From Verrucomicrobia bacterium Ga0077533 (GTDB taxonomy: Bacteria; Verrucomicrobiota; Verrucomicrobiia; Opitutales; Opitutaceae), in the NCBI GenBank assembly GCA_001464505.1, contig LNEH01000176.1:1-60389 (forward strand): a stretch of 60,389 bases of DNA, given 5' to 3'. The position numbers were made by a program, and so were the translations under genes. Positions 27,556 to 49,529 of this stretch are shown here, in pieces. The notes below the pieces were generated by a model. The model did not search any database, was not told where the DNA came from, and saw nothing but the letters and a program-made list of their open reading frames with translations. How positions within the stretch are numbered: the first letter of the stretch is position 1; the number at the start of each line of letters is the position of its first letter.

Positions 27556-28989
27556 ATGCGAAAACTGGGGTGGATGCTTCCACTGGTTGGTGCCCTGGCC
27601 GGCGGCCCAGTCCGGGCGGCTGAACCTGAGGCACTCCTGATCATCGCCGGCGACCAGCACTCGGCCTACGAGCGCACCGCGCAAGTGGTCGCGACGGTTG
27701 ACCGGCTCAAAGCGGAGCACCCCGGCCTGCCGCTGGCCATTTTGCTCAATGGCGACACACTCGAATACGGCAATGTCGTCGCCCGCCGCAGCGCCGGCGC
27801 CGTGGATTTTGCGATGTTCGCCGCCCTCGCCCGCCGCGCGCCCACCATCGTCAACACCGGCAACCACGAGCCGGATTATTTTGATCTCACCGAAACCGTG
27901 GCACGGCTCCAAGCAACGGGTGTCACCGTGGTCAGCAACATCACCAACCGTGCCACCGGGGAGCCGTTTGCGCCCGCCTCGGCGAAAATCAAACTCGGTC
28001 GGGCGGAAGCCGTCGTGGTCGGCGTGGCGACGGACAACCTCGCCACCTACCGGGTGGCGGTCCGGCCCGCGCTTGATCTGGCGGACCCCGTGGTCTGGGC
28101 ACAACGGAACTTTCCAAAGCTATGGGAGGTGGAGCGACTTGACCCCAAGGCGCGGAACGATTCTCGCAGCGTGGAAAAGCGCGTTGAGGGCAACGCGCTT
28201 CACCCCGGACACCCCGCCCCGCTGCGGATCGTGCTCAGCCACGCCGGCCTCAAGGCTGACCGCGAAATGCTGCCGCTGGTGCCGGCCGGCACGCTCTTCG
28301 CCGGGGCGCACGACCATCAACGCTTCGTGCACCAGTTCGACCGCGGAGTGTATGTGCACTCCGGCTCGTGGAACGAACACCTCACGCTGGCTTGGCTGCA
28401 TCGCGATGCCGCCGGGGCTCCGCGCTGGGTGGTGGAGCAAGTGCGCGTTGCGAACGATGATCCGGCCGACCCAGAGCTTGCCGCGCTGATACGCGAGACC
28501 CGCCAGAGACATCTGACACCGGAAGATACGGCGGTGGTCGGTCACCTGCCGGCTGCGCTCGGACCGGCTGACGCCGCCCGGTTTGTCGTCAAAGCATTGC
28601 GCACGGCGGCCGGGGTGGATGCCGCCTTCATTGGCAACACGACCTTTGGGGCCGGACTGCCGGCGGGCGACGTGACCCGCGAGGAGTTCGATGCCTGCGT
28701 GCGTTTCGACGGGACGATCTGGACCGCGGAGGTGGACGGGGCGCGGCTGCGGCAACTGCTGGCCGCCGCCAACCTCGGGCCCGACACGCCGTTCGGACTG
28801 CGGCAAGGCGAATTCTCCTTTGCCGCCGGGCCAGACATCATCGATCCGAAAAAAACCTACCGCATCGCCACCACCGATTGGGGCGCGAAGAACACCGCGC
28901 GTTATTTCGGCGAGCCGGCGATCACCTGGCGGGAGCAACCCGCGCTGAAATTGAAGGCCGCCGTGCTGCCCGCCCTCGCGCCGCGTTGA
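27556..28989 (+). CDS. exported metallophosphoesterase of the 5'-nucleotidase (UshA-like) family
   Basis: A 477-residue periplasmic phosphoesterase with a signal peptide (1-21). The N-terminal calcineurin-like domain has AGDQHSAY at the usual D-x-H position, LLNGDTLEY, NTGNHEPDY, LSHAG and AGAHDHQ, which together supply the two-metal site. The C-terminal ~170 residues form the 5'-nucleotidase substrate domain (IGNTTFGAGLPAGDVTREE). The first motif is D-Q-H rather than the common D-x-H-G. Between the two, residues about 191-217 (VERLDPKARN to EGNALHP) are encoded by a dispersed palindrome (28128-28204) and look foreign to the fold, probably a surface loop. Likely substrates are extracellular nucleotides or other phosphate esters. 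Confidence 0.83.
   Translation: MRKLGWMLPLVGALAGGPVRAAEPEALLIIAGDQHSAYERTAQVVATVDRLKAEHPGLPLAILLNGDTLEYGNVVARRSAGAVDFAMFAALARRAPTIVNTGNHEPDYFDLTETVARLQATGVTVVSNITNRATGEPFAPASAKIKLGRAEAVVVGVATDNLATYRVAVRPALDLADPVVWAQRNFPKLWEVERLDPKARNDSRSVEKRVEGNALHPGHPAPLRIVLSHAGLKADREMLPLVPAGTLFAGAHDHQRFVHQFDRGVYVHSGSWNEHLTLAWLHRDAAGAPRWVVEQVRVANDDPADPELAALIRETRQRHLTPEDTAVVGHLPAALGPADAARFVVKALRTAAGVDAAFIGNTTFGAGLPAGDVTREEFDACVRFDGTIWTAEVDGARLRQLLAAANLGPDTPFGLRQGEFSFAAGPDIIDPKKTYRIATTDWGAKNTARYFGEPAITWREQPALKLKAAVLPALAPR
28128..28204. repeat. GGTGGAGCG-family palindrome inside the nucleotidase gene
   Basis: GGTGGAGCGACTTGACCCC opens and GTTGAGGGCAACGCGCTTCACC-like sequence closes the element; the second hairpin is GCGCGTTG/CAACGCGC. 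It is translated in frame without stops as about 26 residues. Confidence 0.75.
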
Positions 28990-29020
28990 TCCCCACCTGC
29001 GGGGCGCCGTCCCGGCCCCC

Positions 29021-29051
29021 GGCTGATGTCAACTATTGGTTGACATCAGCC
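29021..29051. repeat. 13-bp perfect hairpin downstream of the nucleotidase gene
   Basis: GGCTGATGTCAAC pairs exactly with GTTGACATCAGCC around the 5-base loop TATTG, 32 bp after the nucleotidase stop. It lacks a T-run, so it may be a Rho-independent-like attenuator, a transcript-end stabiliser or an operator for the next gene rather than a classical terminator. Confidence 0.6.
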
Positions 29052-29198
29052 CAAGACGCACCGGGTTGGCGGTCAAGCAGTCGTTCCAGCGGCGGCCGCG
29101 TTTTTCAGGCGGCGGTCCTCCCCGCGTTGATGCCCGGCGGCGGTTCTTTCTGCAAAACCGCCTCGCTTCGGGAGCCGGGATGCGTTTGCTGGCAGCCC

Positions 29199-30551
29199 AT
29201 GGGATTCTTCGACCGCAAGCCTGCCGACCAACCTGAAGCCTCGCCGGTCGCATCCGCCGGGGGGCAGCAAGCCAGCACCGCCGGCGGCGTCCTGCCACAG
29301 CTGGCGGCGGCGCGGGAAAAACTGAAGACCAAGGATGTGCCGGGCGCCATGGCCATCTACGAAACCGTGCTGGCCGGGGCCGGCGACCGGGCGGATGTGC
29401 TCGTCACCATCTCGGGCGACCTCGGCACCACCGGTCACGTTAAGGAGCTGATCGACCTGATTGCGCCGCGTTACGATGCGCAGCGGCATGGCGCCGCCGC
29501 CGGCATCAACCTGCTCCAGGCCTATCTCGTCACGCGCAACGCCGAGGCCGCGCAACATCTGCTCGATCTGCTTTTTGAGCTGCAACGGCCTGAACTGGAG
29601 GCGCGACTCAACGGCTTTTCCAATGCCGTGGCCGAGCTGTTTGTCACCGAGCAAGAAATGGCGGACGTGCCGATGCCGGCGGAAGCCACCAAGGTCAGCC
29701 TGGCGAGCATCAGCAAACCGGTCTGGTTCTACGGGCTCGAGAATTTCGCGTCGCACCTGTTGCCGCGCAAGGAGGGCAAGCGCCGCCGCGTGGCGTTCGC
29801 ACAGTGCGCGCTGCCGGGACTCGAGGACGCCGCGGCGCGCTCGGCGCAGCCCGAGGAGGCGCTCGGCCGGCTGAGCCGCGGGCTGGCGCTGTGGTTTGCG
29901 GAGACTTTTGCCTATGGGGCGGGCTACGAGGCGGTCGCGGCCGTGGGCACGGCCGATCGCAAACACTATGCGCTTTTCTCCTCCGAATGGGTCGCGGAAA
30001 ACGTCCGCCAGTTGAACGACAGCGTGGAGGGCGGGCTCGATTACGTCATCACCGGCGCCTTGCGGAACCGCAGCGAAGACTACGAACTCACCTTGCGCAT
30101 CTGGGAGGTGAAAAAATACCGCGAACTGAAGGGGTTCACGACCCGCTGGACGCCGTCCAATGCGGACGAGGAGCTGCGGAAATTTCACGAGCTGCTGCGC
30201 GGCTATATGGAATGGTCGGCCCTGCCGGCGGGCACCGGTCTCGCTTACGCGGCACCGGTTGCGCCGTTGTCCTACGCGCACGCCCTGGGCGCGGCGCTCA
30301 CCCTCTTTCTCGGGGAAAAAGGCGTGCTGGCGCCCGAGCAGGTGCCGGCCGATCTGGACGTTTTGCTGCAATCTGCACGGGCCAATCCCGACGATGCGCG
30401 CGCTCAGCTGACCCTGGTGGCCGCATTGCTGCGGCTCAAGGCGCAGGGTCGCACGCCCGAGCCGGCCGCTCAGCAGCACGCCGGCGCCTGGCTGGCCTCC
30501 CCCGGTGCGCAGGCCGCCGATGTGGCCGCGCTGATCATGAAGCTGGCGTGA
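29199..30551 (+). CDS. hypothetical protein, cytosolic, 450 residues
   Basis: Not recognised. The ATG at 29199 was chosen because the upstream open frame has no protein character. The N-terminus (GFFDRKPADQ) is followed by a low-complexity Gln/Ala stretch to about residue 30, then by an alpha-helical region with TPR-like appearance (AREKLKTKDVPGAMAIYETV). The middle third is alpha/beta with several Trp/Tyr-rich strands (KPVWFYGLENFASHL, LALWFAETFAYG). The last third, around RKFHELLRGYMEW, is helical and leucine/alanine-rich. No signal peptide, membrane segment or catalytic motif is visible. It is convergent with ompH and followed by a hairpin. A scaffold or TPR-mediated binding role is possible but unsupported. 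Confidence 0.55.
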   Translation: MGFFDRKPADQPEASPVASAGGQQASTAGGVLPQLAAAREKLKTKDVPGAMAIYETVLAGAGDRADVLVTISGDLGTTGHVKELIDLIAPRYDAQRHGAAAGINLLQAYLVTRNAEAAQHLLDLLFELQRPELEARLNGFSNAVAELFVTEQEMADVPMPAEATKVSLASISKPVWFYGLENFASHLLPRKEGKRRRVAFAQCALPGLEDAAARSAQPEEALGRLSRGLALWFAETFAYGAGYEAVAAVGTADRKHYALFSSEWVAENVRQLNDSVEGGLDYVITGALRNRSEDYELTLRIWEVKKYRELKGFTTRWTPSNADEELRKFHELLRGYMEWSALPAGTGLAYAAPVAPLSYAHALGAALTLFLGEKGVLAPEQVPADLDVLLQSARANPDDARAQLTLVAALLRLKAQGRTPEPAAQQHAGAWLASPGAQAADVAALIMKLA

Positions 30552-30564
30552 GCGCCCAATAAAA

Positions 30565-30586
30565 AAGCCCGGCGCGTGCCGGGCTT
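30565..30586 (-). terminator. terminator shared by hypothetical gene and ompH
   Basis: A 9-bp stem (AAGCCCGGC / GCCGGGCTT) with loop GCGT. Read on the minus strand it is followed by a run of T (complement of AAAAAA at 30561-30566), so it best terminates ompH. Confidence 0.8.
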
Positions 30587-30599
30587 GAGAGAGGAGGCG

Positions 30600-30640
30600 C
30601 CTTGCCGCGCCGAAGTTCCGCCGCGGCGGAACGAAGGCGG
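30600..30640. repeat. third copy of the GCCGAAG-n-CGAAGGCGG repeat
   Basis: CGCGCCGAAG and CGAAGGCGGG bracket a TTCCGCCGCGGCGGAA hairpin in the short gap between the shared terminator and the ompH stop. See 27363-27463. Confidence 0.65.
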
Positions 30641-30641
30641 G

Positions 30642-31214
30642 TTACGGGTGCCTGGCGTTGAAGTAAGCGATGAAGTCGGAGGTCAGATCGAGCTCGGGTT
30701 TGGCGTCGAGCAGGGCGTCACCGAGCTTGGCGATGTCAAAAACCATCGAGAGATCGCGCTCGTGGGCAAACAGGCGCAGTTCCTTGCCCAGCTCGGCGCT
30801 GACCGGACCCTGGACCTCCTGCTGGCGTTTGGCAAAGGCCTGTTGGGCGGCCTGCTGCTTGGTCTGCAATTCCTGCTGGAGGGCGACGCCAGCGGCCTGC
30901 TTTTCCTCGATGGCCTTGGCGTTGGCGGCCGGGTCGGAGCGCAGTTTATTCAACTCGCCCACGATCGTGCGCAGCTTTTCGCCCAGCAGCGAAAGCTCGC
31001 TCTGTTGGGAGCTGAACTCCAGTTCGAGTGACTGGAAGACCTTCACCAGCTGCTTGATGCCCGTGGCGGGCTCCAGAAAGGCGTTGCTGTTCACATAGGC
31101 CAAGCGGGCGGGCTCGGTGGCCTTGATGACGGGTGTTTTGACGGGCTGGGCCGGCAGCGAAACGGTCAGGGCGGTGGCCAGCAGGGGCAGAATCAATGGG
31201 CGCAAGAATTTCAT
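30642..31214 (-). CDS. periplasmic OmpH/Skp-family chaperone
   Basis: A 190-residue exported protein with a signal peptide (about 1-22). The core is the long helical hairpin of Skp: a coiled-coil stretch (about residues 60-140, rich in Glu, Lys, Gln and Ala, with LRTIVGELNKLRSDPAANAKAIEEKQ-type heptads) flanked by short beta-strand-forming ends (ARLAYVNSNAFLE and LSMVFDIAKLGDALLDAKPELDLT). Skp trimers hold unfolded outer-membrane proteins in the periplasm. The ATG before KFLRPLIL was chosen. It is not next to bamA or lpxD here, unlike in many genomes. It ends at a clear terminator. Confidence 0.82.
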   Translation of the reverse strand: MKFLRPLILPLLATALTVSLPAQPVKTPVIKATEPARLAYVNSNAFLEPATGIKQLVKVFQSLELEFSSQQSELSLLGEKLRTIVGELNKLRSDPAANAKAIEEKQAAGVALQQELQTKQQAAQQAFAKRQQEVQGPVSAELGKELRLFAHERDLSMVFDIAKLGDALLDAKPELDLTSDFIAYFNARHP

Positions 31215-31260
31215 GGGTGGCTGACACGTAGAGGTCTGGCGCGCTTTGGCAAAGGTTAAA

Positions 31261-32331
31261 TCACCGGGTGGTGGCGAGCTGGCCGCACCCCGCGGCAATG
31301 TCGATACCCCGGCGTTGGCGGACCGTGCTGGGCAGACCGTATTCGGCCAGGATTTGCTGGAAACGCCGGGCCGCCTCCTGGCCGGTAGGGGTGCCACCGT
31401 AGCCGGTGGTCGGATTCAAAGGGATCAGGTTCACCTGCGCCGCCTGGCCCTTGAGCAACCGGCCGACGGCGTGGGCACTCTCCGGCAAATCGTTTTTTCC
31501 CGCGATCAGGGTCCATTCGTAGAATATCCGGCGCTGCAATTTGTCACTGTAGTAACGGCAGGCCGCCATCAGCTCGTCGAGCGGCCACTTTTTCGCCACC
31601 GGCACGAGCGCGGCACGCTCCTCCTGGGTGGCGCCGTGCAGCGACACGGCGAGATGAATGGGCCGGGCCTCGTCAGCGAGGCGGATGATGCCCGGCACCA
31701 CCCCCACGGTGCTGAGCGTAATCTGCTTGGTCCCCAGGGAAAGGCCGGCCGTGTCGCACAGGATGTCCGTGGCGGTCATCACGGCGTCGTAGTTGTGCAA
31801 CGGCTCGCCCATGCCCATGAGCACGATGTTGCGCAGGCGCTCGCCCGCGCCTTTGTAACCTATTAGGTTACAAGTTGCCGGGCGCAGCTCGCGGTCGACA
31901 TGCAGGGCTTGCGCCACGATCTCCCCGGCGGTGAGGTGGCGCGCAAAGCCCATCTGCCCGGTGGCGCAGAACACGCAGCCCATGGCGCAACCGGCCTGGC
32001 TGCTGATGCAGGCGGTCACGCGGCCGGTGAAGCGCATGAGCACGGTCTCAATCCGGCGGTCGTCGTCGAGCGACAGGAGGTATTTGCGGGTGAAACCGTC
32101 GCGACTGCGGGTTTCGGCGGCCACCGGCAGCCGCGTGAAGGTGAGTTCCTTTTCCGCGCGGGCCCGGAAGCGCGCCGGCAATTCCGGCATGGCGGCCCAG
32201 GTCTCCGCGCGCTCGAGGTAGACGTAGGCCCACAACCGCGCCGCATGAACCGGGCTGAACCCCCAGCGCACGACCCGCAGGCGCAGCGCCTCGCGGGTGA
32301 GGTCGTGGAAACTGGCGGCAGCGTCTGACAC
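31261..32331 (-). CDS. rlmN: RlmN-type 23S rRNA / tRNA adenine-C2 methyltransferase
   Basis: Radical-SAM enzyme of 356 residues that methylates A2503 of 23S rRNA and A37 of some tRNAs. The CAMGCVFCATGQMGF motif supplies the cluster cysteines; LMGMGEPLHNYDAVM, STVGVVPGI, LAVSLHGA and the C-terminal AAGCGQL cysteine needed for methyl transfer are present. A short palindrome-derived insert (ATCNLIGYKG) precedes NIVLMGMGEP, a place where relatives have a variable loop. The start codon is GTG. It is not in an obvious operon; ompH follows on the same strand with a 46-bp gap. RlmN is favoured over the related Cfr by the overall motif set and housekeeping context. Confidence 0.92.
   Translation of the reverse strand: MSDAAASFHDLTREALRLRVVRWGFSPVHAARLWAYVYLERAETWAAMPELPARFRARAEKELTFTRLPVAAETRSRDGFTRKYLLSLDDDRRIETVLMRFTGRVTACISSQAGCAMGCVFCATGQMGFARHLTAGEIVAQALHVDRELRPATCNLIGYKGAGERLRNIVLMGMGEPLHNYDAVMTATDILCDTAGLSLGTKQITLSTVGVVPGIIRLADEARPIHLAVSLHGATQEERAALVPVAKKWPLDELMAACRYYSDKLQRRIFYEWTLIAGKNDLPESAHAVGRLLKGQAAQVNLIPLNPTTGYGGTPTGQEAARRFQQILAEYGLPSTVRQRRGIDIAAGCGQLATTR
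31853..31873. repeat. short palindrome inside rlmN
   Basis: Arms TTGTAACCTA and TAGGTTACAA around one central base (10-bp stem). It is read through in frame and encodes CNLIGYK. Confidence 0.7.
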
Positions 32332-32347
32332 GGTGAATTAATTAAGG

Positions 32348-32396
32348 CGGGAGCGACTTTAGGCCGCGGCAAGTCGGGGCCTAAAGCCCCTCCCAC
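32348..32396. repeat. palindrome GGGAGCGACTTTAGGCC / GGCCTAAAGCCCCTCCC
   Basis: Imperfect stem in the 119-bp gap between divergent rlmN and the epimerase gene. Another family from those described above. Confidence 0.6.
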
Positions 32397-32450
32397 ACAA
32401 GGCCAGACGGAGGTTTGCCAAACAGCAAGGGGCCCGCCAGTTTCCGGTCC

Positions 32451-33487: not shown

Positions 33488-33488
33488 A

Positions 33489-34409: not shown

Positions 34410-34419
34410 GAGATGCCCC

Positions 34420-34479
34420 TGTAGCGGCGGTCTATGACCGCCGGGGTATGTTCGACGGCGGTCTATGACCGCCGCTACA
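34420..34479. repeat. double palindrome, TGTAGCGGCGGTC family
   Basis: TGTAGCGGCGGTCTATGACC and its mirror form an outer pair; each half is itself a hairpin (CGGCGGTC/GACCGCCG). It lies between convergent genes and may double as a transcription terminator. Related sequence occurs at 49536-49562 and, in part, near 43012-43028. Confidence 0.75.
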
Positions 34480-38141: not shown

Positions 38142-39470
38142 ATGGCACCCAGCACGGACAATCCACTCGGCCCGAGGAACCCCACCAGTCCCGGGCAGCG
38201 CTCGCTGGCCGCCATTGTCTTCACCGACGTCGTGAGCTTCAGCGCCCGCATGCAAACCGATGAGGAGGCAACCCTGACCCTGTTGCAGCGCGACTTCGAC
38301 ACCATCCGCGAGATCTGCACCCAGCACCAAGGCTCGGTGCTCAAGACCACCGGCGACGGACTGCTGCTTTATTTCTCCAGCGCCGTCCAGGCGGTCGCCT
38401 GCGCCCTGGCGATGCAGCGTTTTTTTGCCGAGCAGGCCAAGACCCGCCCTGCGACCCAGAGTCTCGTCCACCGCCTCGGCATCCACTTGGGCGACGTGTT
38501 CGTCAACGACCAGGACGTGATGGGCGATGGCGTGAACATTGCGGCCCGTTTGCAAGCCGAGGCCGAGCCCGGCGGCATCTGCATTTCCCAGACGGTCTAC
38601 GACGTCGTGAAGAACAAGCTGGCGTTGCACGTCACCCGATTGGGCCCGCGCGAACTGAAGAACATCTCGCAGCGCATCCCCATCTACAGGCTGCTGCTGG
38701 AGGCCTCCACGCTGGAGACCAAGGCCGGGGAATCGCAACCGGCCGAGCCGGGCCCGGCGGGCAAGGTGCCTCCCTGGGCACGCAGCCGGGGTTTGAGGAT
38801 CGCGCTCGCCACCGGTCTCGGCACGGGACTGGCCCTGCTCATCGGCCTGCTGATGCTCGCCCGGGTTCGGGAGAAAAGGGAAGCCGCCCGGGCCGAGGCC
38901 GCCCAAAGTGCGATCAAAACCGCCGTGGCCGAGCATTCTCCCGACACCACCAGCCGCGAGCAGATCGCGAACACCCTGCTGGCCTGGCGCGCCGAGTTGC
39001 GTGACCAGCGCTCAACGGCGGCGGAAGAATATAATTTTCCCGAACTGGCCCGTGGCGTGCGCGATCCCCGGTCCTTGGTCGCGGGCAAGCCCGAGGCCCA
39101 GATCCGCCTCACGGTTTTGGCCCAGATGCAGGGACTTTTCGGATGGCTGGCCACCACGCTGCAGCGTTACAGCCGGGAAAACCCGCTCGTCGTTCACGAA
39201 CTGTCCGGCACCGTTCCGAAGGAAATCAGGGTCTTCGTGGGCGCCGACCGGCGGCTTTATTACGCGGAAGGTGGCGCCACCCGGCAACGCAACTGGGCGG
39301 AGCTTCGGCCCGCGGTGATGGCGGCGATAATCGCCGGTGCCCTGCCCGAGGCCCAGCCGGTCCCGCCGCGCGAGGCGGTGCTGGGCGCCCAGGCGTTCGC
39401 GGGCTTCTACCAATTGCCCGAATTGATGGAAGCCCTGCATAAGGGCCGACCAAAGCGTCCCGCCAAGTGA
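38142..39470 (+). CDS. class III adenylate/guanylate cyclase with a C-terminal membrane-anchored domain
   Basis: A 442-residue protein. Residues about 20-180 are a class III cyclase catalytic domain with both metal Asp residues (D29 in FTDVVSFS and D72 in TTGDG), the purine-recognition Lys in VLKTTGDG, and the transition-state Asn and Arg in GVNIAARL. It therefore looks active as a homodimer and is more like adenylate than guanylate cyclase. A single membrane helix (about 209-232) follows, then a helical linker and a ~190-residue C-terminal domain on the other side of the membrane, possibly sensory. It lies downstream of the kinase gene with 98 bp between them, and its stop overlaps the next start. 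Confidence 0.85.
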   Translation: MAPSTDNPLGPRNPTSPGQRSLAAIVFTDVVSFSARMQTDEEATLTLLQRDFDTIREICTQHQGSVLKTTGDGLLLYFSSAVQAVACALAMQRFFAEQAKTRPATQSLVHRLGIHLGDVFVNDQDVMGDGVNIAARLQAEAEPGGICISQTVYDVVKNKLALHVTRLGPRELKNISQRIPIYRLLLEASTLETKAGESQPAEPGPAGKVPPWARSRGLRIALATGLGTGLALLIGLLMLARVREKREAARAEAAQSAIKTAVAEHSPDTTSREQIANTLLAWRAELRDQRSTAAEEYNFPELARGVRDPRSLVAGKPEAQIRLTVLAQMQGLFGWLATTLQRYSRENPLVVHELSGTVPKEIRVFVGADRRLYYAEGGATRQRNWAELRPAVMAAIIAGALPEAQPVPPREAVLGAQAFAGFYQLPELMEALHKGRPKRPAK

Positions 39471-40219
39471 ATCTGCACGTCCTGCCTGTCCGCGCCGGCG
39501 CCGCCGCTGAAAACATGGCGTTGGATTTCCTGCTCCTCCAGCGCTATCCGGAGCCGGCGGTCCCGCGCTTCCGGCATTATGAATGGCGCGGCCCGGCCTT
39601 CACTTTCGGCTTCAGTCAGAAAATCGGATTTGTCCGGGCCAATCTCCCGGCCGGTGAATCCCTCGACCTCTGCCGCCGGCCGACCGGAGGCGGCATCGTG
39701 GATCACCGCCACGACTGGACCTACATGCTGGTGCTGCCGCGAGGCCACGCGCTTTACGCCGAACGGGCGGCCCAATCCTACCGCGTCGTCCACGAGTGCC
39801 TGACCGCCGCCCTGGTCGCGCTCGGCCAGCCGGCCGCGGTGAAAATGCAATGCGACAAGGTGGAGCGCGTGGCCCCCAACGCGCTTTCAGGGGAAGCGTC
39901 TTGTGGGCAAGCCGCTCCACCCCCCGGCCTCTGCTTCCAACGCGCTGAGCTCTACGACGTCATCAACACCGCCACCGGCGCGAAAATCGCCGGCGCGGCG
40001 CAGAAGCGCAACAAACACGGCCTGCTCTTCCAGGGCTCGATCGAGAAAGCAGCGGTTGGATCCGTGGACTGGGATGATTTTTCGGCGCGGTTTTCCGCCG
40101 CCCTGGCGCGCACATTGGGCGGCGGGTCGCAGCTGACCCCCTGGCCCGACTTGAACGAGGCTGAAACCGGGGGGTTGACCGAACAATATTCCAGCCCGGA
40201 ATGGCTGGAATATCGCTAG
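39467..40219 (+). CDS. lipoate-protein ligase A-type protein
   Basis: A 250-residue member of the BPL_LplA_LipB fold that attaches lipoate (or a related acyl group) to carrier domains. Motifs present are RRPTGGGIVDH (substrate-binding loop), the GFSQK strand, and the KIAGAAQKRNKHGLLFQGSI stretch with the catalytic Lys. A segment of ~24 residues between MQCDK and CFQRAELYDV (VERVAPNALSGEASCG and on) is encoded by a dispersed palindrome and falls in a loop position. GTG start overlaps the cyclase stop by four bases. The stop codon itself lies inside the inverted repeat of a MITE-like element. Octanoyl- versus lipoyl-specificity is undecided. Confidence 0.82.
   Translation: MNLHVLPVRAGAAAENMALDFLLLQRYPEPAVPRFRHYEWRGPAFTFGFSQKIGFVRANLPAGESLDLCRRPTGGGIVDHRHDWTYMLVLPRGHALYAERAAQSYRVVHECLTAALVALGQPAAVKMQCDKVERVAPNALSGEASCGQAAPPPGLCFQRAELYDVINTATGAKIAGAAQKRNKHGLLFQGSIEKAAVGSVDWDDFSARFSAALARTLGGGSQLTPWPDLNEAETGGLTEQYSSPEWLEYR
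39859..39921. repeat. GGTGGAGCG-family palindrome inside the lipoate ligase gene
   Basis: GGTGGAGCGCG and CCCCCAACGCGCT open, and GCCGCTCCACC closes the element; terminal arms GGTGGAGC / GCTCCACC. Read in frame without stops. Confidence 0.75.
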
Positions 40220-40353
40220 AGCAGTTTAAGTTGAGTTGTAGCTGCTGGAAAAGGTGGAGCGTGCTGACCTCAGCGCGCTTGCCTTGGAAAAACGCCCTGA
40301 GGTCAGGGCGTTCCACCCAATATCTGGCCACACTATTATTTAAACTGCTCTAG
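40216..40353. mobile_element. MITE-like element with 14-bp perfect terminal inverted repeats
   Basis: CTAGAGCAGTTTAA at 40216-40229 is exactly inverted at 40340-40353. The 138-bp element has no reading frame and encloses a GGTGGAGC-family palindrome (40253-40317). The TAG stop of the lipoate ligase gene (40217-40219) is part of the left terminal repeat, so insertion may have set the gene's 3' end. No transposase is in the window. Confidence 0.7.
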
Positions 40354-42646: not shown

Positions 42647-42674
42647 GGTGGAGCGCGTTGACCCCAACGCGCTT
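42647..42674 (+). repeat. half copy of GGTGGAGCG-family palindrome
   Basis: GGTGGAGCGCGTTGACCCC then AACGCGCTT, beginning at the base after the S9 gene stop. Only one hairpin of the usual two is present. Confidence 0.65.
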
Positions 42675-42684
42675 TTCTAAAAGC

Positions 42685-42716
42685 AGGCGCCGGTGCGAAC
42701 ACCGGCGCCTTTTTCT
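42685..42716 (+). terminator. strong intrinsic terminator of the S9 peptidase gene
   Basis: An 11-bp perfect stem AGGCGCCGGTG / CACCGGCGCCT, tetraloop CGAA, followed by TTTTCTTT. Textbook Rho-independent form. Confidence 0.9.
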
Positions 42717-43559: not shown

Positions 43560-43572
43560 GTGACGAACAGAA

Positions 43573-43645
43573 GGTTTTTTTAACGCGGAGGGCACTGAGA
43601 TCGCGGAGGGTTGGGAACTTCGCGTTCTCCGCGCCCTCCGCGTTT
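43573..43645. repeat. imperfect palindrome TAACGCGGAGGGC / GCCCTCCGCGTTTA
   Basis: AACGCGGAGGGC near 43582 is inverted as GCCCTCCGCGTT near 43634, with GAGATCGCGGAGG and CGCGTTCTCCGC inside. It occupies the gap between the GNAT start and the rlmD stop and reaches the rlmD stop codon. Confidence 0.65.
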
Positions 43646-44999
43646 AGATCGATTTGCCCTTCACCAGCGTGATCACGCACTCGAGGTGGCGCGTCTGCGG
43701 GAAAAGATCGAAGGGTTGCACCGCAGTGAGCCGGTAGCCGGCGGCGAGGAAGCCCTTGAGGTCGCGCATCTGCGTGGCCGGGTCGCACGACACATAGACC
43801 ACAGCGCGCGGGCCGAAGGCAAAGAGCTGGTTGAGAAAGGACTCGTCACAGCCCTTGCGGGGCGGATCGATGACGATCGCCGTGTCGGCGGACGGGAAAT
43901 CCAGCCCGGCGAAGATCTGCGCGGCGTCACCGGAGCGGAAAGTGGCGTTGGCGATGCCGTTGGCCGCTGCGTTCTCCGTGGCGAATTTCACCGAGGTGTC
44001 GCTCAGCTCGATGCCCGTCACCCGCTCGAAGGCCGGCGCGCAACTCAGGGCGAACAGCCCGCTGCCGCAGTAGGCATCGACCAGGAACTTGGCCCCGCTG
44101 CCGGCCGCCTGCTCGCGGACGTAGCTGGTGAACGCCGGCAGAATGAACGGGTTGTTCTGGAAAAAATCACGGGCGAGGAAGTGCAGCCGGAGCGGCTTCT
44201 TTGAACCTGGTTGTTGTGGGAGCGAGCTTGCTCGCGACATGAACCAGTCGCGAGCAAGCTCGCTCCCACATTCGGCAGCAGGCTCAATCACCTCGTGGAC
44301 CACGGCGTCGTAGTCGGTGACGACGCCCTCCTGGGCGTGGCGCAGGAGCAGGGTCGCATCGCGCTTGTATTCGCCCGCGGCGAGGCGCTGCCGGGTTTTT
44401 TCGCGGACTTCGGACAGCTTCGCATTGATCTCGGGTGTGGCGATCGGGCACTGCGGCACATCCACCAGCTCAAAGCGTGAGCTTTGTTTGAGAAACCCGA
44501 TGGGGAAAGTTTCCCCCGTCACTTGTCTCAGGTCACTGGTCACTTCTTTTCCGCGCGGCTGCGCGGAAAAGTGCGGCGTGAGTTTCGACCGATAGCCGAA
44601 CTCCCGCGGCGAGCCGATGACGGCGTTCACGGTAAATTCCACCCCGGCCATGTATTTCAGGAGCTCCTGGACCTGTTGGCGCTTCCACTTCAACTGCTCG
44701 GCGTAGGTCAGGTGCTGGTATTGGCAACCGCCACACTGGCCGAACAGAGGACACTTGGGGGCGATGCGGTGCGGCGAGGGCGCCAGCACCTCCAGCAGAT
44801 CGGCCTCGGAGTAGTTCTTGTGGTTGCGATAGACCCGGACGCGCACCCTCTCGCCCGGCAGGGTGAACGGCACCATCACAACCCATCCTTCGCCCCGCTC
44901 CGCTGGGCTTCGGAGGGCAGGCCCACCCGGCGAATTCACGGCATCCAGCCTCACGCGCCCCAGCCCCACGCCGAGGTTGGTCAGCGTCGCGATCTCCAT
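43644..44999 (-). CDS. rlmD: TrmA/RlmD-type 23S rRNA uracil-C5 methyltransferase
   Basis: A ~451-residue SAM-dependent methyltransferase making m5U in rRNA. An N-terminal TRAM domain (TLTNLGVGLGRV and FTLPGERVRVRVYRN), iron-sulfur cysteines (CPLFGQCGGCQYQHL), and a Rossmann domain with DAYCGSGLFAL, IDPPRKGCDE and catalytic Cys in VYVSCDPATQMRDL are complete. The protein carries repeat-derived inserts: PGGPALRSPAERGEGW within TRAM, FSAQPRGKEVTSD near 44546-44571, and ECGSELARDWFMSRASSLPQ at 44215-44270. ATG 44999 is preferred because the open frame further upstream is another repeat. RlmD versus RlmC-type specificity is not decided by sequence alone. Confidence 0.88.
   Translation of the reverse strand: MEIATLTNLGVGLGRVRLDAVNSPGGPALRSPAERGEGWVVMVPFTLPGERVRVRVYRNHKNYSEADLLEVLAPSPHRIAPKCPLFGQCGGCQYQHLTYAEQLKWKRQQVQELLKYMAGVEFTVNAVIGSPREFGYRSKLTPHFSAQPRGKEVTSDLRQVTGETFPIGFLKQSSRFELVDVPQCPIATPEINAKLSEVREKTRQRLAAGEYKRDATLLLRHAQEGVVTDYDAVVHEVIEPAAECGSELARDWFMSRASSLPQQPGSKKPLRLHFLARDFFQNNPFILPAFTSYVREQAAGSGAKFLVDAYCGSGLFALSCAPAFERVTGIELSDTSVKFATENAAANGIANATFRSGDAAQIFAGLDFPSADTAIVIDPPRKGCDESFLNQLFAFGPRAVVYVSCDPATQMRDLKGFLAAGYRLTAVQPFDLFPQTRHLECVITLVKGKSI
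44215..44270. repeat. 24-bp-arm palindrome inside rlmD
   Basis: TGTGGGAGCGAGCTTGCTCG continues to GCGAC and is inverted perfectly after an 8-base spacer. It is read through in frame. The GAGCTTGCTC core recurs at 46823-46870. Confidence 0.85.
44546..44571. repeat. 11-bp hairpin inside rlmD
   Basis: CTTTTCCGCGC / GCGCGGAAAAG around GGCT. It is preceded by CACTTGTCTCAGGTCACTGG-type direct repeats (GTCACT) and translated as part of an insert of about 20 residues. Confidence 0.7.
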
Positions 45000-45049
45000 C
45001 TCGAGCTCGTGATGGTAGGGAAAGGGTTGGTCGTTGAATATTTTCTTTT

Positions 45050-45132
45050 TCACCACGAAACACACGAAACACACGAAAAGGGGAAAACAGAAGAGATTTT
45101 ATTTCGTGTCTTTCGTGTGTTTAGTGGTGAAC
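45050..45132. repeat. inverted repeat ACCACGAAACACACGAAA between rlmD and trmH
   Basis: CACCACGAAACACACGAAAC on the left and TTTCGTGTGTTTAGTGGTG on the right flank a GAAAAC-rich centre. It forms the shared 5' region of the divergent rlmD and methyltransferase genes. A related element is at 53018-53092. Confidence 0.75.
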
Positions 45133-45140
45133 TTCTGCCC

Positions 45141-46028
45141 GTGCTTCCTGAAAAGATCACCAGCTTGCAGAATCCCCGCATCAAGCAGCTCGTGAGGCTG
45201 CGCGACCGGCGCGACCGCGACGATGCCGGGCTGTTCATGATCGAGGGCTACCGGGAGATCCGCCGGGCGCTGGAGAAGGGCGTGCGATTGAACGAACTTT
45301 ATTTCAGTCCTGATTGGTTCTTGGGTGAAAATGAACCGGCGTTGATCGAGCAAGCCAAGCAGGCCGGGGCCCAGCTGTTCGAGCTGTCAAAGGAGGCCTT
45401 TGCCAAGGTGGCCTATCGCGAGCGGCCCGACGGTCTGCTCGCCGTCGCGGCGCAGTGGAAACACAGTTTAAATGACCTTCTTGTAGGTCGGGCTTTACGC
45501 CCGACAGATGCGCCCGATGTCGGGGATCAGCCGTCGCTCTCCGAGCTATGGCCGACAGGTAAACCCCGACCTACAGACCCCTTCCTGCTGGTGGTCGAGT
45601 CCATCGAGAAGCCCGGCAATCTCGGCACCATTTTGCGCAGCGCGGACGCCGCCGGCTGCGACGCCGTGATCGTGTGCGATGCCGTGACCGACATTTTTAA
45701 TCCCAACGTCGTGCGCGCCTCGACCGGCGTGCTGTTCTCCGTGCCGATCGTGGTGTCCGACAGCATGGCGGTGCACACGTGGCTAAAAGAAAAAGGCATC
45801 CGCATCGTGGCGACCACACCCGACACGCCGAACCTCTACACCAAGGCCGACCTGCGCGGGCCGCTGGCGATCGTCATGGGCAGCGAGCAATACGGGCTCA
45901 GCCAGTTCTGGCTCAAGGAAAGCCATCAACTCGTCCGCATTCCGATGGCCGGCCAGGCCGACTCGCTCAACGTCGCCATGGCGGCGATCATCACGCTCTT
46001 CGAGGCCGTCCGGCAACGGAACGGCTAG
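45141..46028 (+). CDS. TrmH/SpoU-family RNA 2'-O-ribose methyltransferase
   Basis: A 295-residue SPOUT methyltransferase. The N-terminal substrate-binding domain (ITSLQNPRIKQLVRLRDRR, then FMIEGYREIRRAL) and the knotted catalytic domain with VVESIEKPGNLGTILRSADA (motif 1), IVMGSEQYGLSQFW (motif 2) and IPMAGQADSLNVAMAA (motif 3) are intact. About 30 residues between the domains (LLVGRALRPTDAP to TGKPRPTD) are encoded by a palindrome and lie in the natural linker. The GTG was chosen because upstream sequence is repeat. The target (tRNA or 23S rRNA) is unclear. Its stop overlaps the end of a duplicated oleD fragment on the other strand. Confidence 0.88.
   Translation: MLPEKITSLQNPRIKQLVRLRDRRDRDDAGLFMIEGYREIRRALEKGVRLNELYFSPDWFLGENEPALIEQAKQAGAQLFELSKEAFAKVAYRERPDGLLAVAAQWKHSLNDLLVGRALRPTDAPDVGDQPSLSELWPTGKPRPTDPFLLVVESIEKPGNLGTILRSADAAGCDAVIVCDAVTDIFNPNVVRASTGVLFSVPIVVSDSMAVHTWLKEKGIRIVATTPDTPNLYTKADLRGPLAIVMGSEQYGLSQFWLKESHQLVRIPMAGQADSLNVAMAAIITLFEAVRQRNG
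45482..45575. repeat. palindrome TGTAGGTCGGGCTTTA inside the TrmH-type gene
   Basis: TGTAGGTCGGGCTTTACGCCC on the left and GTAAACCCCGACCTACA (inverted, one mismatch) on the right. Read in frame, no stops. A GGGGCTTTACGCCCC relative lies near 42918-42935. The left sequence is cited for its first 20 bases only: TGTAGGTCGGGCTTTACGCC. Confidence 0.75.
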
Positions 46029-46199
46029 GCGGGTTCGCGTTTCAAGTGCTCGATGAGTTCAGCGGTGCCGACGGCCATGGTGACACGCGGCGTGTAGCCA
46101 AGGTCGCGGCGGGCGGCGGAGATGTCGAACCAGTGGTCGGTGGCCATCTCCTTGGCGACGAAACGGACCAGCCGGAGTTTGCGCTTGCTCAGAGTGAAG
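46025..46199 (-). pseudogene. duplicated 3' end of the oleD-like gene
   Basis: Bases 46046-46165 match 46885-47004 without gaps, with about nine differences in 120. The frame is still open and encodes KEMATDHWFDISAARRDLGY and a normal end (LIEHLKREPA). No 5' part exists, so it is a gene fragment. With the intact copy it brackets the mazEF pair. Confidence 0.8.
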
Positions 46200-46218
46200 A
46201 TGTAATTACTTTGTGGTC

Positions 46219-46473
46219 ATGCTCACTAAGATCGTGCCCATTGGAAACTCACGTGGCATTCGCATTCCCAAGGCGATGCTCGACCACTGCGGCTTTGGCC
46301 AGGAGGTCGAGATGGAAGCGAAAAACGGCGCGCTGATCCTGCGACCGGTGAACACGCCGCGAGCTGGCTGGGCGGAAATTTATAGCGGCATGGCGGCCGC
46401 CAAGGATGACTTGTTGGTGCATGAAGATCCGTCGTCCGGAACGCGGTTCGACGCGGAGGAATGGGAATGGTAG
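46219..46473 (+). CDS. MazE/AbrB-type antitoxin
   Basis: An 84-residue protein with the SpoVT/AbrB swapped-hairpin DNA-binding fold: MLTKIVPIGNSRGIRIPKAM, then GFGQEVEMEAKNGALILRPV. The C-terminal ~35 residues (WAEIYSGMAAAKDDLL and an acidic tail) are the flexible toxin-binding part. It overlaps the toxin gene by seven bases. Expected to neutralise the toxin by wrapping it and to repress the operon with it. The ATG was preferred over GTG two codons earlier. Confidence 0.9.
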   Translation: MLTKIVPIGNSRGIRIPKAMLDHCGFGQEVEMEAKNGALILRPVNTPRAGWAEIYSGMAAAKDDLLVHEDPSSGTRFDAEEWEW

Positions 46474-46790
46474 TCCGCCGCTTCGACGTCTGGCTGGTAA
46501 ATCTCGACCCGACCATTGGCAGCGAGATCAGGAAGACGCGTCCGGCCTTGGTGCTCTCGCCGGATGAAATGAACGCGCACATTGCCACCGTCATCATCGC
46601 GCCGATGACGACCAAGGGCCGTGATTACCCCACCCGCGTGCCTTGCACTTTCCAAGGGAAGTCCGGCCAGGTCGTGCTCGATCAGTTGCGCACCGTAGAC
46701 AAGGCGCGGCTCGTTAAGCGCCTCGGTGAAGTGGACACAGCAGTGGCCGATGCGGTGTTGGACGGGTTGGCGGAGATGTTTGCGAAGTGA
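46467..46790 (+). CDS. MazF/PemK-family endoribonuclease toxin
   Basis: A 107-residue mRNA interferase. The RRFDVWLVNLDPTIGSEIRK N-terminus with the catalytic-site Arg/Lys, RPALVLSPDEMN, VIIAPMTTKGRDYPTRV and VLDQLRTVDKARLVKRLG motifs are typical. The ATG at 46467 is preferred since GGAGGA at 46455-46460 sits six bases upstream; an ATG at 46461 would abut it. Gene order antitoxin-toxin with a short overlap is canonical. The pair lies between two copies of the same gene end. Confidence 0.92.
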   Translation: MVVRRFDVWLVNLDPTIGSEIRKTRPALVLSPDEMNAHIATVIIAPMTTKGRDYPTRVPCTFQGKSGQVVLDQLRTVDKARLVKRLGEVDTAVADAVLDGLAEMFAK

Positions 46791-46822
46791 AACCATCGGC
46801 CCGCAGCGACGCGGGCCCTCCG

Positions 46823-46870
46823 GTAGGTTGCGAGCTTGCTCGCAACGTGGCGAGCGCGCACGCCACCTAC
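46823..46870. repeat. palindrome GTAGGTTGCG / CGCCACCTAC
   Basis: An inner GCGAGCTTGCTCGC hairpin is related to the element in rlmD. The right arm overlaps the last bases of the oleD-like gene. Confidence 0.65.
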
Positions 46871-47931
46871 AGTTCGCGCCGCAGGTGCTCGATGAGTTCA
46901 GCCGTGCCGGCGGTCATGGTGACACGTGGTGCGTAGCCGAGGTCGCGGCGGGCGGCGGAGATGTCGAACCAGTGGTCGGTGGCCATTTCCTTGGCGACAA
47001 AACGCGTCATCGGCGGCTCGCCCTTGAGCGGCAGCACGCGCCACAAGGCCTCGAGCACGCCGCCAGTGGCGTAGGCGACGGACATGGGGAGGTGCCGGGT
47101 GATCGGAGGCTCGTTGAGCTCCGTCAGAAGATGGTTGATCCACTTCCACAGGTTCACGGGTTCGCCGTTGGTGATGAAGTAGGCCTTGCCGCCAGGATAG
47201 GATGGAGGGCGGACGCCCTCGTCCGCCAACCCGCGGGGTGAGGGCACCCCGCCTCCAGCAATCAAGGCCTGCTCGGCGAGCAGGTGCGCGTCCACGACGT
47301 TGGTGATGTGCGTCACGTCCACCTGATTGTCGCCCGGGCCGATGATCCGCAGCCGGCCGGCCCGGGCGAGGGCGAGCACGCGCGGCACGACGTTCTTGTC
47401 GCCGGGCCCCCAAACAAGATGCGGGCGCAGCGACACCGTGGCCAGTTCGGCCGAGTGCGCCTTGCGCACGAGCTGCTCGGCGGCGGCTTTGCTCGTCGGA
47501 TAGGCGCAGGGTGCCGAGGTGCAGAGCGGCGCGGACTCGTCCACGCCGGTGAGGTCGCCGCCGTTATAGACGACACTGGGCGAGCTGGTGTAGATGAGCC
47601 GCGACACGTCCGCCTCGCGGCAGGCGTTGATGACATTTTGCGTGCCGCCGACGTTAACATCGAAAAATTCTTTGCGCGAACCCCACACCCCAACGCGCCC
47701 GGCCACGTGGAAGACCGTGGCGGCGCCCGCGCAGCCGCGTTGCAGCGCGGCGGTGTTGTCCAGGTCGCCCAAAACGATCTCCGCGCCAAGTTTTTCCAAC
47801 TCCGGCAGCGGCCGGCGGGCCAGCACCCGCACGCGCCGACCGTCGGCGAGCAGGCGTTTGGCGATCTTGCCGCCGATGAAGCCGCTGGCACCGGTGATAA
47901 AGACAGGGAAATTCCTGGCGACGGAGTGCAT
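46867..47931 (-). CDS. oleD: NAD-dependent 3-beta-HSD-type dehydrogenase, OleD-like
   Basis: A 354-residue extended short-chain dehydrogenase. N-terminal NAD(P)-binding ITGASGFIGGKIA, catalytic YPTSKAAAEQ (Y-x-x-x-K), HVAGRVGVWG and RPHLVWGPGD motifs are present. Adjacent oleC-type gene 13 bp upstream on the same strand indicates it is OleD, which reduces 2-alkyl-3-ketoacids to beta-hydroxy acids in long-chain olefin biosynthesis. Residues around GGGVPSPRGLADEGVRPPSY are encoded by palindromes (47203-47257) and look inserted before KAYFITNGEPVNLW. OleA and OleB are not in the window. A generic sterol-dehydrogenase-like role is the alternative. Confidence 0.8.
   Translation of the reverse strand: MHSVARNFPVFITGASGFIGGKIAKRLLADGRRVRVLARRPLPELEKLGAEIVLGDLDNTAALQRGCAGAATVFHVAGRVGVWGSRKEFFDVNVGGTQNVINACREADVSRLIYTSSPSVVYNGGDLTGVDESAPLCTSAPCAYPTSKAAAEQLVRKAHSAELATVSLRPHLVWGPGDKNVVPRVLALARAGRLRIIGPGDNQVDVTHITNVVDAHLLAEQALIAGGGVPSPRGLADEGVRPPSYPGGKAYFITNGEPVNLWKWINHLLTELNEPPITRHLPMSVAYATGGVLEALWRVLPLKGEPPMTRFVAKEMATDHWFDISAARRDLGYAPRVTMTAGTAELIEHLRREL
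47203..47257. repeat. two hairpins inside oleD
   Basis: GGCGGACG/CGTCCGCC and GCGGGGTG/CACCCCGC, framed by TGGAGG and CCTCCA. Read in frame without stops. Confidence 0.75.
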
Positions 47932-47944
47932 GGGGAGAGGCAGG

Positions 47945-49529
47945 TTACCGGTGGGCCGCCCAGCGGGCGAGCGCAAGTCGGTGGATCTTGGCGTTATGCC
48001 GGACATCGACCGGCAGGGACGGATGAAAAAGGATCCGGCTGATAGCAGTCGTGTGCGGGTGCCGCCGGGCCAAGGCACGCAATTCCTCCGCCAGTCGGGC
48101 TTCGTCGGTGACGGTGAAGGTCTTTACCGCCTGCACCACCAGCGCAGGCTGCTGGTTGCCCGGTTCGCCGATTCCGACGAGGGCGCAGCGCTCCACCCGG
48201 GGGTGGCTGCGGAATACCTGCTCTGACACGCTCGGCAATCCGGCCGCAGAACCAAAGACGGCCCGAGGCATCGACGTAGCCGGCGTCGCCCATGCGGTGC
48301 CAGACGGGGGTTGAGCCAATCTTTGCGGCGGCGGTGGCCTCAGGCAGCGCATCATAAACCCTGGTGGCGGTGGGGCCGGTGACGATGATCTCGCCGATTT
48401 CGCCCGGTGGAAGTTCGTGGGCGGCGGCAAGTGAAGCCAGGGGGCCATCATGCAGGGCGATGATTTTAACCTGATTCCCGGGCAAAGGTCGGCCGATGAG
48501 CGATCCGTTCACCGCGCCCGTGGTTACCTCGGCACCCGACACCGTGGCGACGGGCAGAACCTCGGTCGCGCCGTAGGGGCTGTGCAAAGTGCCGTTGACC
48601 AGAACCCGGGGAGCGTCGGCCCACAGCGAGGCGGGCACGGCGGCTCCGGCGCAGAGCACGCGGCGCAGAGTGGGCAGCGTGAGGTTGTGCGCGAGACAGT
48701 GGTCGAAGATCTTCCGCCAAAGCGTCGGAGAGCCGAAGGAGTTCGTCACTTTTTCCTGCAGGATGGCCCTGACTATCTTCTCCGGGTCAACCGTCGCCGG
48801 GCAGCTGGGGTCAAGCTCCGGCACGATGGTGGTCATCCCGAGTGCGGGGTTGAAGAGCGCGAAGATCGGCAGCATCGGCAGGTCCACCTCGCCGGGTTCA
48901 ATGCCGTAGGTGTCGCGGACGAGCCGCACCTGCGCCTCGAACATGCCGTGCTCGTAGCACACGCCCTTGGGCGCACCGGTGGAGCCCGAGGTGAAGAGAA
49001 TGGCGGCGAGGTCGGTGGCGGCGACTTCGCAACACACCCCGGCGCTGCGCGCCACCCCTATCGAGAGGGGGTTTTTTAGCAGTTGGGCGGTGGCTGAGCC
49101 GCTGACCCAGATACGGAGCGCCACGGAATTGAAGGCTGAACGGAAAACGTGGCTCATCACCTGGGCCAGGGGGATGCCCAGCAGCACGCGGGGCCGCGAA
49201 CGGGCAACACAGGCGAGATAATTTTTCCGGCCCATGCCCGGGTCGATAATGACCGGCACGGCGCCGAGCTTGAAGAGGGCGAAGGCCGCGGCGATGAGTG
49301 GCAGCCCCTGGCGGACCATCACGAGCACGCGGTCGCCGGGCCGCACCCCGCGGGCGGAAAGTTTGGCCACCCACGCGTCCACTTCGCCGTCGAGCTCGGC
49401 GAAGGTGAGAACGAGATAATCAATCCGGCCATCCGCCGTGCGTCCGCGCGGCACCTTGACGGCGGCCCGCTCCGGCTGGAGCGCGGCCATCAAGGGCAGG
49501 TGGCGGGCGATGTTGGCGGAGTCGGACAC
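47945..49529 (-). pseudogene. oleC: OleC-like beta-lactone synthetase (AMP-ligase family), frameshifted
   Basis: Acyl-adenylate-forming enzyme of about 525 residues over two frames. OleC converts the OleD product to a beta-lactone using ATP. The first frame, from a GTG, holds LFTSGSTGAPKGV (P-loop), the OleC-type LPIFALFNPALGMTT, SPYGATEVLP and MGDAGYVDASGRLWFCGR. Near 48225 the sequence shifts: the next frame gives SEQVFRSHPRVERCALVGIG and the correct end FHPSLPVDVRHNAKIHR. Compared with the family, about a dozen residues are missing at the junction. A probable repeat-derived stretch (LLKNPLSIGVARSAGV) lies at 49042-49074. If the shift is real the product is truncated before the C-terminal domain and likely inactive; a sequencing or assembly error is the alternative. 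Confidence 0.8.

Follow-up and report, generated by a model that had tools for sequence, protein, structure and literature searches.

The window, meaning the whole 60,389-nt stretch analysed here, comprises positions 1-60,389 of the forward strand of contig LNEH01000176.1 in assembly GCA_001464505.1 of Verrucomicrobia bacterium Ga0077533 (Opitutaceae), a 2.93-Mb genome that is 83% complete. An initial annotation reported eight palindromes read through in frame inside its genes. Inverted repeats are present at these places, and six of the eight are repeat copies that add residues absent from same-genus orthologues. On the plus strand, a 5'-nucleotidase-type gene (27556-28986; Pfam Metallophos and 5_nucleotid_C matches, orthologues) contains an in-frame pair of family A REPs at 28128-28204, for a net gain of 84 nt (28 codons) over orthologues without the repeat, and a lipoate ligase-type gene (39467-40216; Pfam LplA-B_cat) contains another such pair at 39859-39921, adding 51 nt relative to orthologues without the repeat. 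Both of these copies have imperfect arms and were identified through family membership. A TrmH/SpoU-type rRNA methylase gene (45147-46025, plus strand; Pfam, orthologues) has an in-frame pair of family C REPs at 45482-45575, adding 84 nt by orthologue comparison. On the minus strand, rlmN (31264-32331), in which the Radical_SAM Pfam match extends across the insert, contains an in-frame 21-bp hairpin centred on TATTA at 31853-31873, which encodes CNLIGYK and adds 24 nt relative to orthologues. The rlmD-type gene (open frame 43647-45074, minus strand; Pfam tRNA_U5-meth_tr), the real start of which probably lies further inside the frame, contains an in-frame pair of family B REPs (CGSELARDWFMSRASSLPQ) at 44215-44270, a net addition of 87 nt (29 codons) over orthologues. 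The oleD-type dehydrogenase gene (46870-47934, minus strand; Pfam 3Beta_HSD, the name oleD being that of the initial annotation) contains a REP-like palindrome at 47203-47257, recognized from repeat copies and orthologues, in a loop that is a hot spot for such elements; with it, the protein is 16 to 19 codons longer than its shortest relatives.

The other two palindromes do not add residues in this way. The second one in rlmD (44546-44571, minus strand) was rejected as an inserted repeat: it is palindromic, yet it is the sole copy in 0.63 Mb of sequence from the same genome, and three relatives (G018, G016 and G003) have exactly the same number of residues as the window at this position, so that it is native to the gene. 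The repeat at 49042-49074 (minus strand) in the oleC-type AMP-binding gene (47997-49529, minus strand; identified by Pfam, with the name again from the initial annotation) resembles GGTGGCGCGCAGCGCCGGGGTGTG and is multi-copy, with eight matches. It lies in a variable linker that is nearly equal in length in relatives, and for this reason it looks, from sequence comparison, like mostly a linker replacement and no clean insertion.

The elements at the six sites are 77, 63, 56, 94, 21 and 55 nt long and thus not all multiples of three, but the net inserts are, and the reading frame is kept, as initially proposed. Relative to the element, the net insert ranges from 31 nt longer to 12 nt shorter; therefore, either bases are gained or lost at the junctions, or the loops were variable beforehand. 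The sites are variable loops or linkers, in agreement with their proposed placement; at the one site examined by structure prediction, residues 133-156 of the lipoate ligase have a predicted pLDDT below 50. The AlphaFold model of rlmD (mean pLDDT 38.7) was unusable.

Related repeats are found between the genes of the window. These include a TATTG-centred hairpin of the ATGTCAAC subtype at 29021-29051, belonging to the same hairpin family as the rlmN palindrome; a pair of family H REPs at 34420-34479, the same repeat flanking a RAYT-type gene on contig C138; an intergenic pair of family A REPs at 40253-40317; and a single family A REP at 42647-42677, immediately past the end of an open frame. 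Hairpins with arms of at least 18 number seven in the window against a mean of 0.35 in 20 dinucleotide shuffles, and those with arms of at least 12 number 19 against 10.6. One of the seven is the in-gene site at 44215-44270, and most of the others are intergenic. No Rfam family was found at gathering score in an RNA-family scan of the window.

The REP families are present in many copies, often as inverted pairs: family A has 170 matches in the genome (reversed-pattern control, 7), family B has 83 (control, 0) and family C has 69 (control, 0). Families C and H carry GTAG at one end, and A and B carry GTGG after one base, in conformity with REP palindromes of about 20-40 bp. Four of the six RAYT-type (PF01797) genes have inverted REPs on both sides: family B at L009, family H at L012, TGTGGGAGGGGCTTTACGCCCCGAC at L013 and GTAGGGCGGACC-type repeats at L011, the last two resembling family C and the oleD repeat. 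A cognate RAYT for family A or for family C itself was not found, the genome being 83% complete. Assignment of families A, B, C, H and others to REP/BIME elements is very probable, and the RAYT transposases would be the enzymes that copy them.

Across the genome sequence examined, 208 distinct repeat sites were compared. At 39 of them the coding-like flanks share one reading frame that runs across the element without a stop, although at least three of these (two at L003 and L166:1360) seem to match the pattern by chance. Outside the window, ten sites of the genome each sit inside a single Pfam match. Another 13 of the 208 are open and frame-shifted, all of them gene junctions when inspected by eye, and no gene-breaking copy was seen among the sites inspected. 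Such copies are possible among the 79 sites with a weak flank signal and the 13 at contig ends. In-frame copies are denser in the window (five of the 39, in 60 kb of 2.93 Mb), a finding that was chosen for them and for which family A places are sampled incompletely.

The same loops hold different elements in different species. The lipoate ligase loop that holds family A in the window is occupied by family B in G014, G004 and G018. Of 20 TrmH orthologues, a set that includes the window, four have a filled loop, with family C in G011, G017 and the window and another REP in G004, and the loop of the other 16 is empty. Sequences with a filled TrmH loop form no common group on either tree, concatenated or TrmH gene, the latter having several weak branches, and parsimony requires four changes; recombination between species confined to the loop could mimic independent insertion. 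The oleD loop holds as many as three tandem hairpins, all in frame.

Taken together, the in-gene palindromes very likely represent copies of two kinds of short, non-autonomous mobile element, REP families and TATTA-centred hairpins, in line with the earlier suggestion that several unrelated repeat families enter genes. Copies probably insert widely across the genome; those that break genes would be purged, and those that fall in flexible loops, preserve the frame and introduce no stop would survive and, judging from the open frames, be translated as extra residues. The same loops would be filled repeatedly, across species and families, because few loops tolerate insertion.

The initial annotation missed that the palindrome in rlmN is a member of a family separate from the REPs. 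These 21-bp hairpins have a TATTA centre and covarying arms; the rlmN hairpin is symmetric, has no one-sided GTAG or CGTC tag, does not conform to the REP pattern, and has many copies elsewhere in the genome (control, 0). Among 145 Verrucomicrobiota genomes, TATTA hairpins are almost confined to Opitutaceae. A literature search found no paper on them, and they appear to be new, with symmetry that appears to be kept even within genes. Rows of the covariance-model alignment (A3) were chosen for palindromes, which biases its pair counts; the reliable tests of symmetry are a one-arm test, in which G-T pairs occupy only 5 of 623 cells, so that symmetry is at the DNA level, and a peptide-anchored test in oleD, in which compensated changes preserve the stem. 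On balance, the evidence leans slightly towards a family of mobile DNA hairpins in Opitutaceae that is new to the literature, at least 21 bp long with a TATTA centre and arms that are subfamily-specific yet complementary, which would enter coding sequences in frame, recurrently at loops of oleD, oleC, rlmD and rlmN and at times two or three in tandem per gene, under a symmetry so strict that the DNA makes pairs of amino acids covary (Asn with Tyr; His or Gln with Asp). If so, TATTA hairpins would constitute a separate kind of element.

The perfect dyad symmetry at the DNA level would also suit immobile sites bound by a dimeric protein, as would a palindrome in GspE/PilB-like frames that overlaps an apparent motif of native length. 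Gene orientation around the hairpins is divided. With one way of delimiting the flanks, 7 of 93 hairpins lie between divergent and 4 between convergent genes, a count that slightly lowers the odds of a mobile family; in contrast, the 57 hairpin places of the genome include 14 convergent, 13 tandem and no divergent ones, and the 150 hairpins across all sequence examined include 16 convergent, 35 tandem and 2 divergent, with 46 in genes. One subtype, TGTCAAC, makes up most of the convergent cases. Because the rlmN copies also add codons and oleD can carry three hairpins in tandem, binding sites are an unlikely explanation. Retention of in-gene hairpins as functional mRNA structures, acting in attenuation or pausing, would be consistent with the preserved stem in oleD, but the one-sided G-U variants expected of RNA are rare (as they also are in the palindrome-biased A3 alignment), the window has no Rfam match at gathering score and many orthologues lack the hairpin, making this improbable. 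Both explanations rank below mobile hairpins.

Ordinary hypervariable linkers that resemble repeats by chance or slippage are a highly improbable source of the inserts. In relatives, some of these loops do contain other linkers or the simple-repeat peptides SQPSTLNSQ and SKIENQKSK, and the native rlmD palindrome is a case of this type, but copies of the rlmN palindrome and of families A, B and C far exceed their controls and the residues are wholly missing in many orthologues. This largely refutes such an origin at the five sites of the window whose elements belong to multi-copy families; the oleD repeat, with only three copies in 0.63 Mb, is less secure. An assembly artefact is also unlikely, because the inserts recur in other assemblies, including the one-contig genome G012, which has family A in lplA and a hairpin in rlmN.

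The REP kind, which covers most of the in-gene palindromes, is already known from a relative. The initial annotation knew of no description for Verrucomicrobiota, but this fails because Di Nocera et al. 2013 (PMC3733652), in the portion drawn on here, report the highest number of intragenic GTAG repeats in Opitutus terrae, a member of Verrucomicrobia and, like the source bacterium, of Opitutaceae. That account of GTAG REPs and RAYTs shares with the present case short GTAG/GTGG-tagged palindromes (GTGG being present in most O. terrae GTAG-20 elements), inverted dimers and intragenic copies encoding 20-30 residues; a uvrA gene has two inserts, as L294 here carries families A and C, and REP ends provide stop codons, as at L204, L216 and L223. 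That part of the report notes one shared insertion site, in Xanthomonas recB, whereas here comparison of orthologues reveals sites without an insert and loops that have been filled more than once, and links REP families to RAYT-type genes within one genome. Rickettsia palindromic elements, proposed earlier as the parallel, share the habit of in-frame palindromes in unrelated genes, but as described in PMC10969869 they are about 150 bp long, against 21-94 bp here, where RAYT-type genes carry REPs; families A, B and C find their closest parallel in REP/RAYT. Small mobile sequences of enterobacteria also enter genes and encode peptides; they measure 103-168 bp, and their abstract-level account (PMC2759123, PMC2229807) does not mention TATTA hairpins. 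Opitutaceae thus offer a bacterial family in which short mobile DNA is seen to have lengthened housekeeping enzymes many times over, and in which orthologues with and without the insert can be compared. Whether palindromic elements give rise to new segments of proteins, a long-standing question, can be put to a direct test there.

The palindromes located by the initial annotation were found at their coordinates in the window sequence, among them GTAG/GTGG REP elements of family A in a 5'-nucleotidase gene (28128-28204) and lplA (39859-39921), of family B in rlmD (44215-44270) and of family C in a TrmH-type gene (45482-45575), and the TATTA-centred 21-bp hairpin of family E in rlmN (31853-31873). 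The window contains seven hairpins with arms of length 18 or more (0.35 in shuffles), of which only 44215-44270 is among the in-gene sites of that annotation. Further copies were sought in the Ga0077533 genome, a 2.93 Mb draft of 226 contigs (82.75% complete) in which the window is all of contig C176.

Orthologues lacking the inserts exist for all five genes. Measured as DNA length between fixed protein anchors, in those relatives that gave a reading, the empty state is present in 7 of 18 relatives for rlmD (72 nt), 16 of 19 for the TrmH-type gene (75 nt), 7 of 19 for rlmN (75 nt), 6 of 10 for lplA (78 nt) and 4 of 6 for the nucleotidase (81 nt), the last being empty in 9 of 13 by protein alignment. 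The net inserts of the window are, in the same order, +87, +84, +24, +51 and +84 nt, and the elements themselves measure 56, 94, 21, 63 and 77 bp; it is therefore the complete insert, and not the length of the element, that preserves the reading frame. The RlmD protein has matches in 56 of 57 genomes (its own included), many of them split around the insert, and the named records that match it best, all metagenome genomes, bear the labels Oleiharenicola, Opitutia, Lacunisphaera and Opitutus. One rlmD relative (L037 8163-9461, genome G010) contains one stop codon within the best-match stretch. Two other inverted repeats adjoin rlmD in the window, one of AACGCGGAGGGC immediately 3' of its stop codon (43582-43644) and one, ACCACGAAACACACGAAA-type, where rlmD begins and in the gap to the TrmH-type gene (45049-45131). 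Since rlmD of relatives starts with residues resembling those of the latter repeat (VCFVCFVV), the listed rlmD start in the window probably falls within it.

The same loop is filled in separate lineages and by different elements. At the TrmH loop, the window, G011 and G017 have family C and G004 has a GTAG REP of another type, whereas the other 16 relatives have no insert. On a concatenated tree (21 rows, 2222 columns), TrmH-empty genomes are sisters of the window (G018), G017 (G010) and G004 (G012), the sister of G011 (G007) having given no TrmH reading, and at least four changes are required; in the TrmH gene tree, computed after removal of the loop, the filled rows do not cluster, several branches of this tree being weak. 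With loop states assigned by hand, as for TrmH, the least number of changes is 6 for lplA and 10 for rlmD, both raised because other linkers were scored as a separate state. It is 2 for the nucleotidase and likewise 2 for rlmN, the latter leaving aside the variant seen in G014 as well as G007 and species that carry a different linker. The lplA loop holds family A in the window and G012, and family B in G018, G014 and G004; in the predicted structure, pLDDT is below 50 at residues 133-156, which lie between strands 123-125 and 165-167, as would be expected of a disordered loop. Loops that carry palindromes in some species are occupied in others by simple-repeat peptides, SQPSTLNSQ and SKIENQKSK among them (the rlmD loops of loci L025 and L030, the oleD loop of L035, and the oleC linkers of several loci). 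In several Opitutaceae, the TrmH, rlmD or oleD loop is occupied by another GTAG-type repeat, which encodes a VAGLGEPG...SATPAT-like peptide (L028, L030, L088, L095, L106, L131, L140, L150).

Pattern searches of the Ga0077533 genome, each set against a control search with the reversed pattern, found 170 matches to family A (GGTGGAGCGNGNTGNCCNCA, at most two mismatches) versus 7 in the control, 83 to family B (TGTGGGAGCGAGCTTGCTCGC, at most three) versus 0, 69 to family C (GTAGGTCGGGCTTTACGCCCGAC, at most three) versus 0, and 32 strand matches at 16 places to family E (TTGTAACCTNNTAGGTTACAA, at most two) versus 0. The tag is GTGG, one base in, for families A and B, and GTAG at the start for family C. 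Six genes match the Y1 transposase family PF01797 above cut-off, the sixth only when its neighbours in the frame are included. Inverted REPs lie on both sides of four of the six: family B at locus L009, family H (the repeat of 34420-34479) at L012, TGTGGGAGGGGCTTTACGCCCCGAC repeats at L013, and GTAGGGCGGACC-type repeats (three mismatches) at L011. None of the tested REP families lies alongside the other two (L010 and L014), and families A and C proper are without a cognate gene among the PF01797 matches of this 82.75%-complete genome. Their Pfam family and flanking REPs suggest that these genes are REP-associated Y1 transposases (RAYTs).

Placement relative to genes was assessed at 208 distinct sites of families A, B, C, E or H (family A from the first 100 of its 170 places), with frames called by a codon model trained on orthologues from relatives. 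A single open frame runs through the element at 31 sites by strict calls and 39 by lenient ones (A 20, B 8, C 7, E 4); at least three of the 39 resemble chance pattern matches, and one (L055) is close to the frame start and may precede the true start. The rest have the same frame with a stop (18), a shifted but open frame (13), a shift and a stop (21), genes on opposite strands (25), weak coding calls (79) or contig ends (13). Inspection by eye found gene junctions, the upstream gene ending first, at all 13 frame-shifted open sites and likewise at 24 of 26 strict stop or shift cases; the other two, a REP in mnmA and a likely chance match, keep the frame, and a natural stop follows further downstream. 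Thus no broken gene was seen among the inspected sites, which excluded the weak and contig-end ones. A Pfam scan of 29 frames outside the window (two of the same gene; hand counts, with domain names from Pfam or derived from it) placed 10 sites within one domain match (SNF2 helicase, leuS, tilS, LysE, mnmA twice, M20 peptidase, queA and P-type ATPase twice). At least 11 sites separate two matches of one protein, including a site in an SNF2 helicase frame on the contig of the SNF2 site above, menC, Mur ligase, aceF type, DinG type, ABC-F and uvrA (twice). Many of the genes with in-frame sites resemble RNA-modifying or tRNA enzymes (rlmN, rlmD, TrmH, mnmA, tilS, queA, dus and leuS).

The rlmN loop reads TTGTAACC-TATTA-GGTTACAA in the window, G018 and G012 (the centre differing by one base in G012) and TGGTAGTC-TATTA-GACTACCA in G014, where the neighbouring bases are nearly the same as in the window type; G007, of another clade, has a third hairpin type. 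In the 2.66 Mb examined (overlaps included, contexts deduplicated), at least six perfect pairs directly flank 67 of 653 TATTA pentamers, versus none for six of eight control pentamers, with 15 for the near relative TATTG and 4 for CATTA. At sites picked by the left arm only (NGTNANN-TATTA, n=99), the right arm has at least five of seven matching bases in 89 cases and at most two in 10, counts that are not independent events because copies of one subfamily are related; the fourth pair is A-T in 55, C-G in 32 and mixed in 2. Sites picked by the encoded oleD peptide alone (n=24) have at least five of seven pairs in 22, with Asn accompanying Tyr in 7 and His or Gln accompanying Asp in 15. G-T pairs occupy only 5 of 623 cells of the one-arm test, and this rarity speaks for a symmetry that would act at the DNA level.

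The exact rlmN type (at most one mismatch) occurs in 9 of 54 genomes searched, Ga0077533 included, and a covariance model matched 13 of 145 Verrucomicrobiota genomes. Eleven of the 13 belong to the family of the window, nine of them with at least 15 to at least 54 matches (lower bounds, 56 candidates being scored per genome); four other genomes of the family gave no match to the model, and two genomes outside it gave a single weak match each. The hairpins may instead be protein-binding sites, but two of the three counts below, which show them to be scarce between divergent genes, and their occurrence as extra codons both argue against this. In Ga0077533 (93 strand matches), the sequence examined contains 57 distinct hairpins (TATTA 39, TATTG 17, CATTA 1). 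Of these, 8 lie within genes in frame (one of them probably by chance), 14 between convergent genes, 13 between tandem genes and 0 between divergent genes; 14 have a single coding side, 6 are unclear and 2 are at ends. Across all sequence examined, 150 hairpins at the same cut include 46 in genes, 16 between convergent genes, 35 between tandem genes and 2 between divergent genes, and 93 at another cut include 4 convergent and 7 divergent; copies in genes are over-represented here, as many loci were centred on rlmD. In-frame places number 32 of 93. They include the oleD loop of nine loci, in four of which two or three hairpins are spaced by 45 to 66 nt, the oleC linker (L088, L094, L095, L111) and the rlmD loop (L096, L108). 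In a survey covering 101 loci, strict hairpins were present in 12 of the 45 distinct oleD loops read, the corresponding counts being 2 of 48 for rlmD, 4 of 51 for oleC and 0 of 49 for TrmH. One P-type ATPase frame (contig C183, 34959 and 35092) contains two different TATTA hairpins, both in frame and 133 bp apart. In GspE/PilB-like frames (L360, L375 and contig C21 near 14665), a TATTA hairpin overlaps the stretch CNLLGYKGR, presumably a native motif, with apparently no added length.

Most likely, REPs and TATTA hairpins both copy themselves to many places, the REPs presumably through RAYTs. Within genes, copies that break the gene would be purged and only those leaving it readable would persist, to be translated as part of the protein, so that the same few tolerant loops would be hit repeatedly. 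No report of TATTA hairpins was found in the literature with five sequence spellings or, among the records listed, with palindromes combined with Verrucomicrobia, Opitutaceae or in-frame insertion, subscription journals being mostly outside this coverage. The REPs of families A, B and C, like REP elements generally, are found singly and as inverted pairs. In Opitutus terrae, also classified in Opitutaceae, inserts are described in PMC3733652 as encoding 20 to 30 residues, with double inserts in both uvrA genes; in Ga0077533, a 1618-residue frame with a UvrA domain has one A and one C insert. Given these matches, the REP part of the present set consists of new members of a kind already reported in O. 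terrae.
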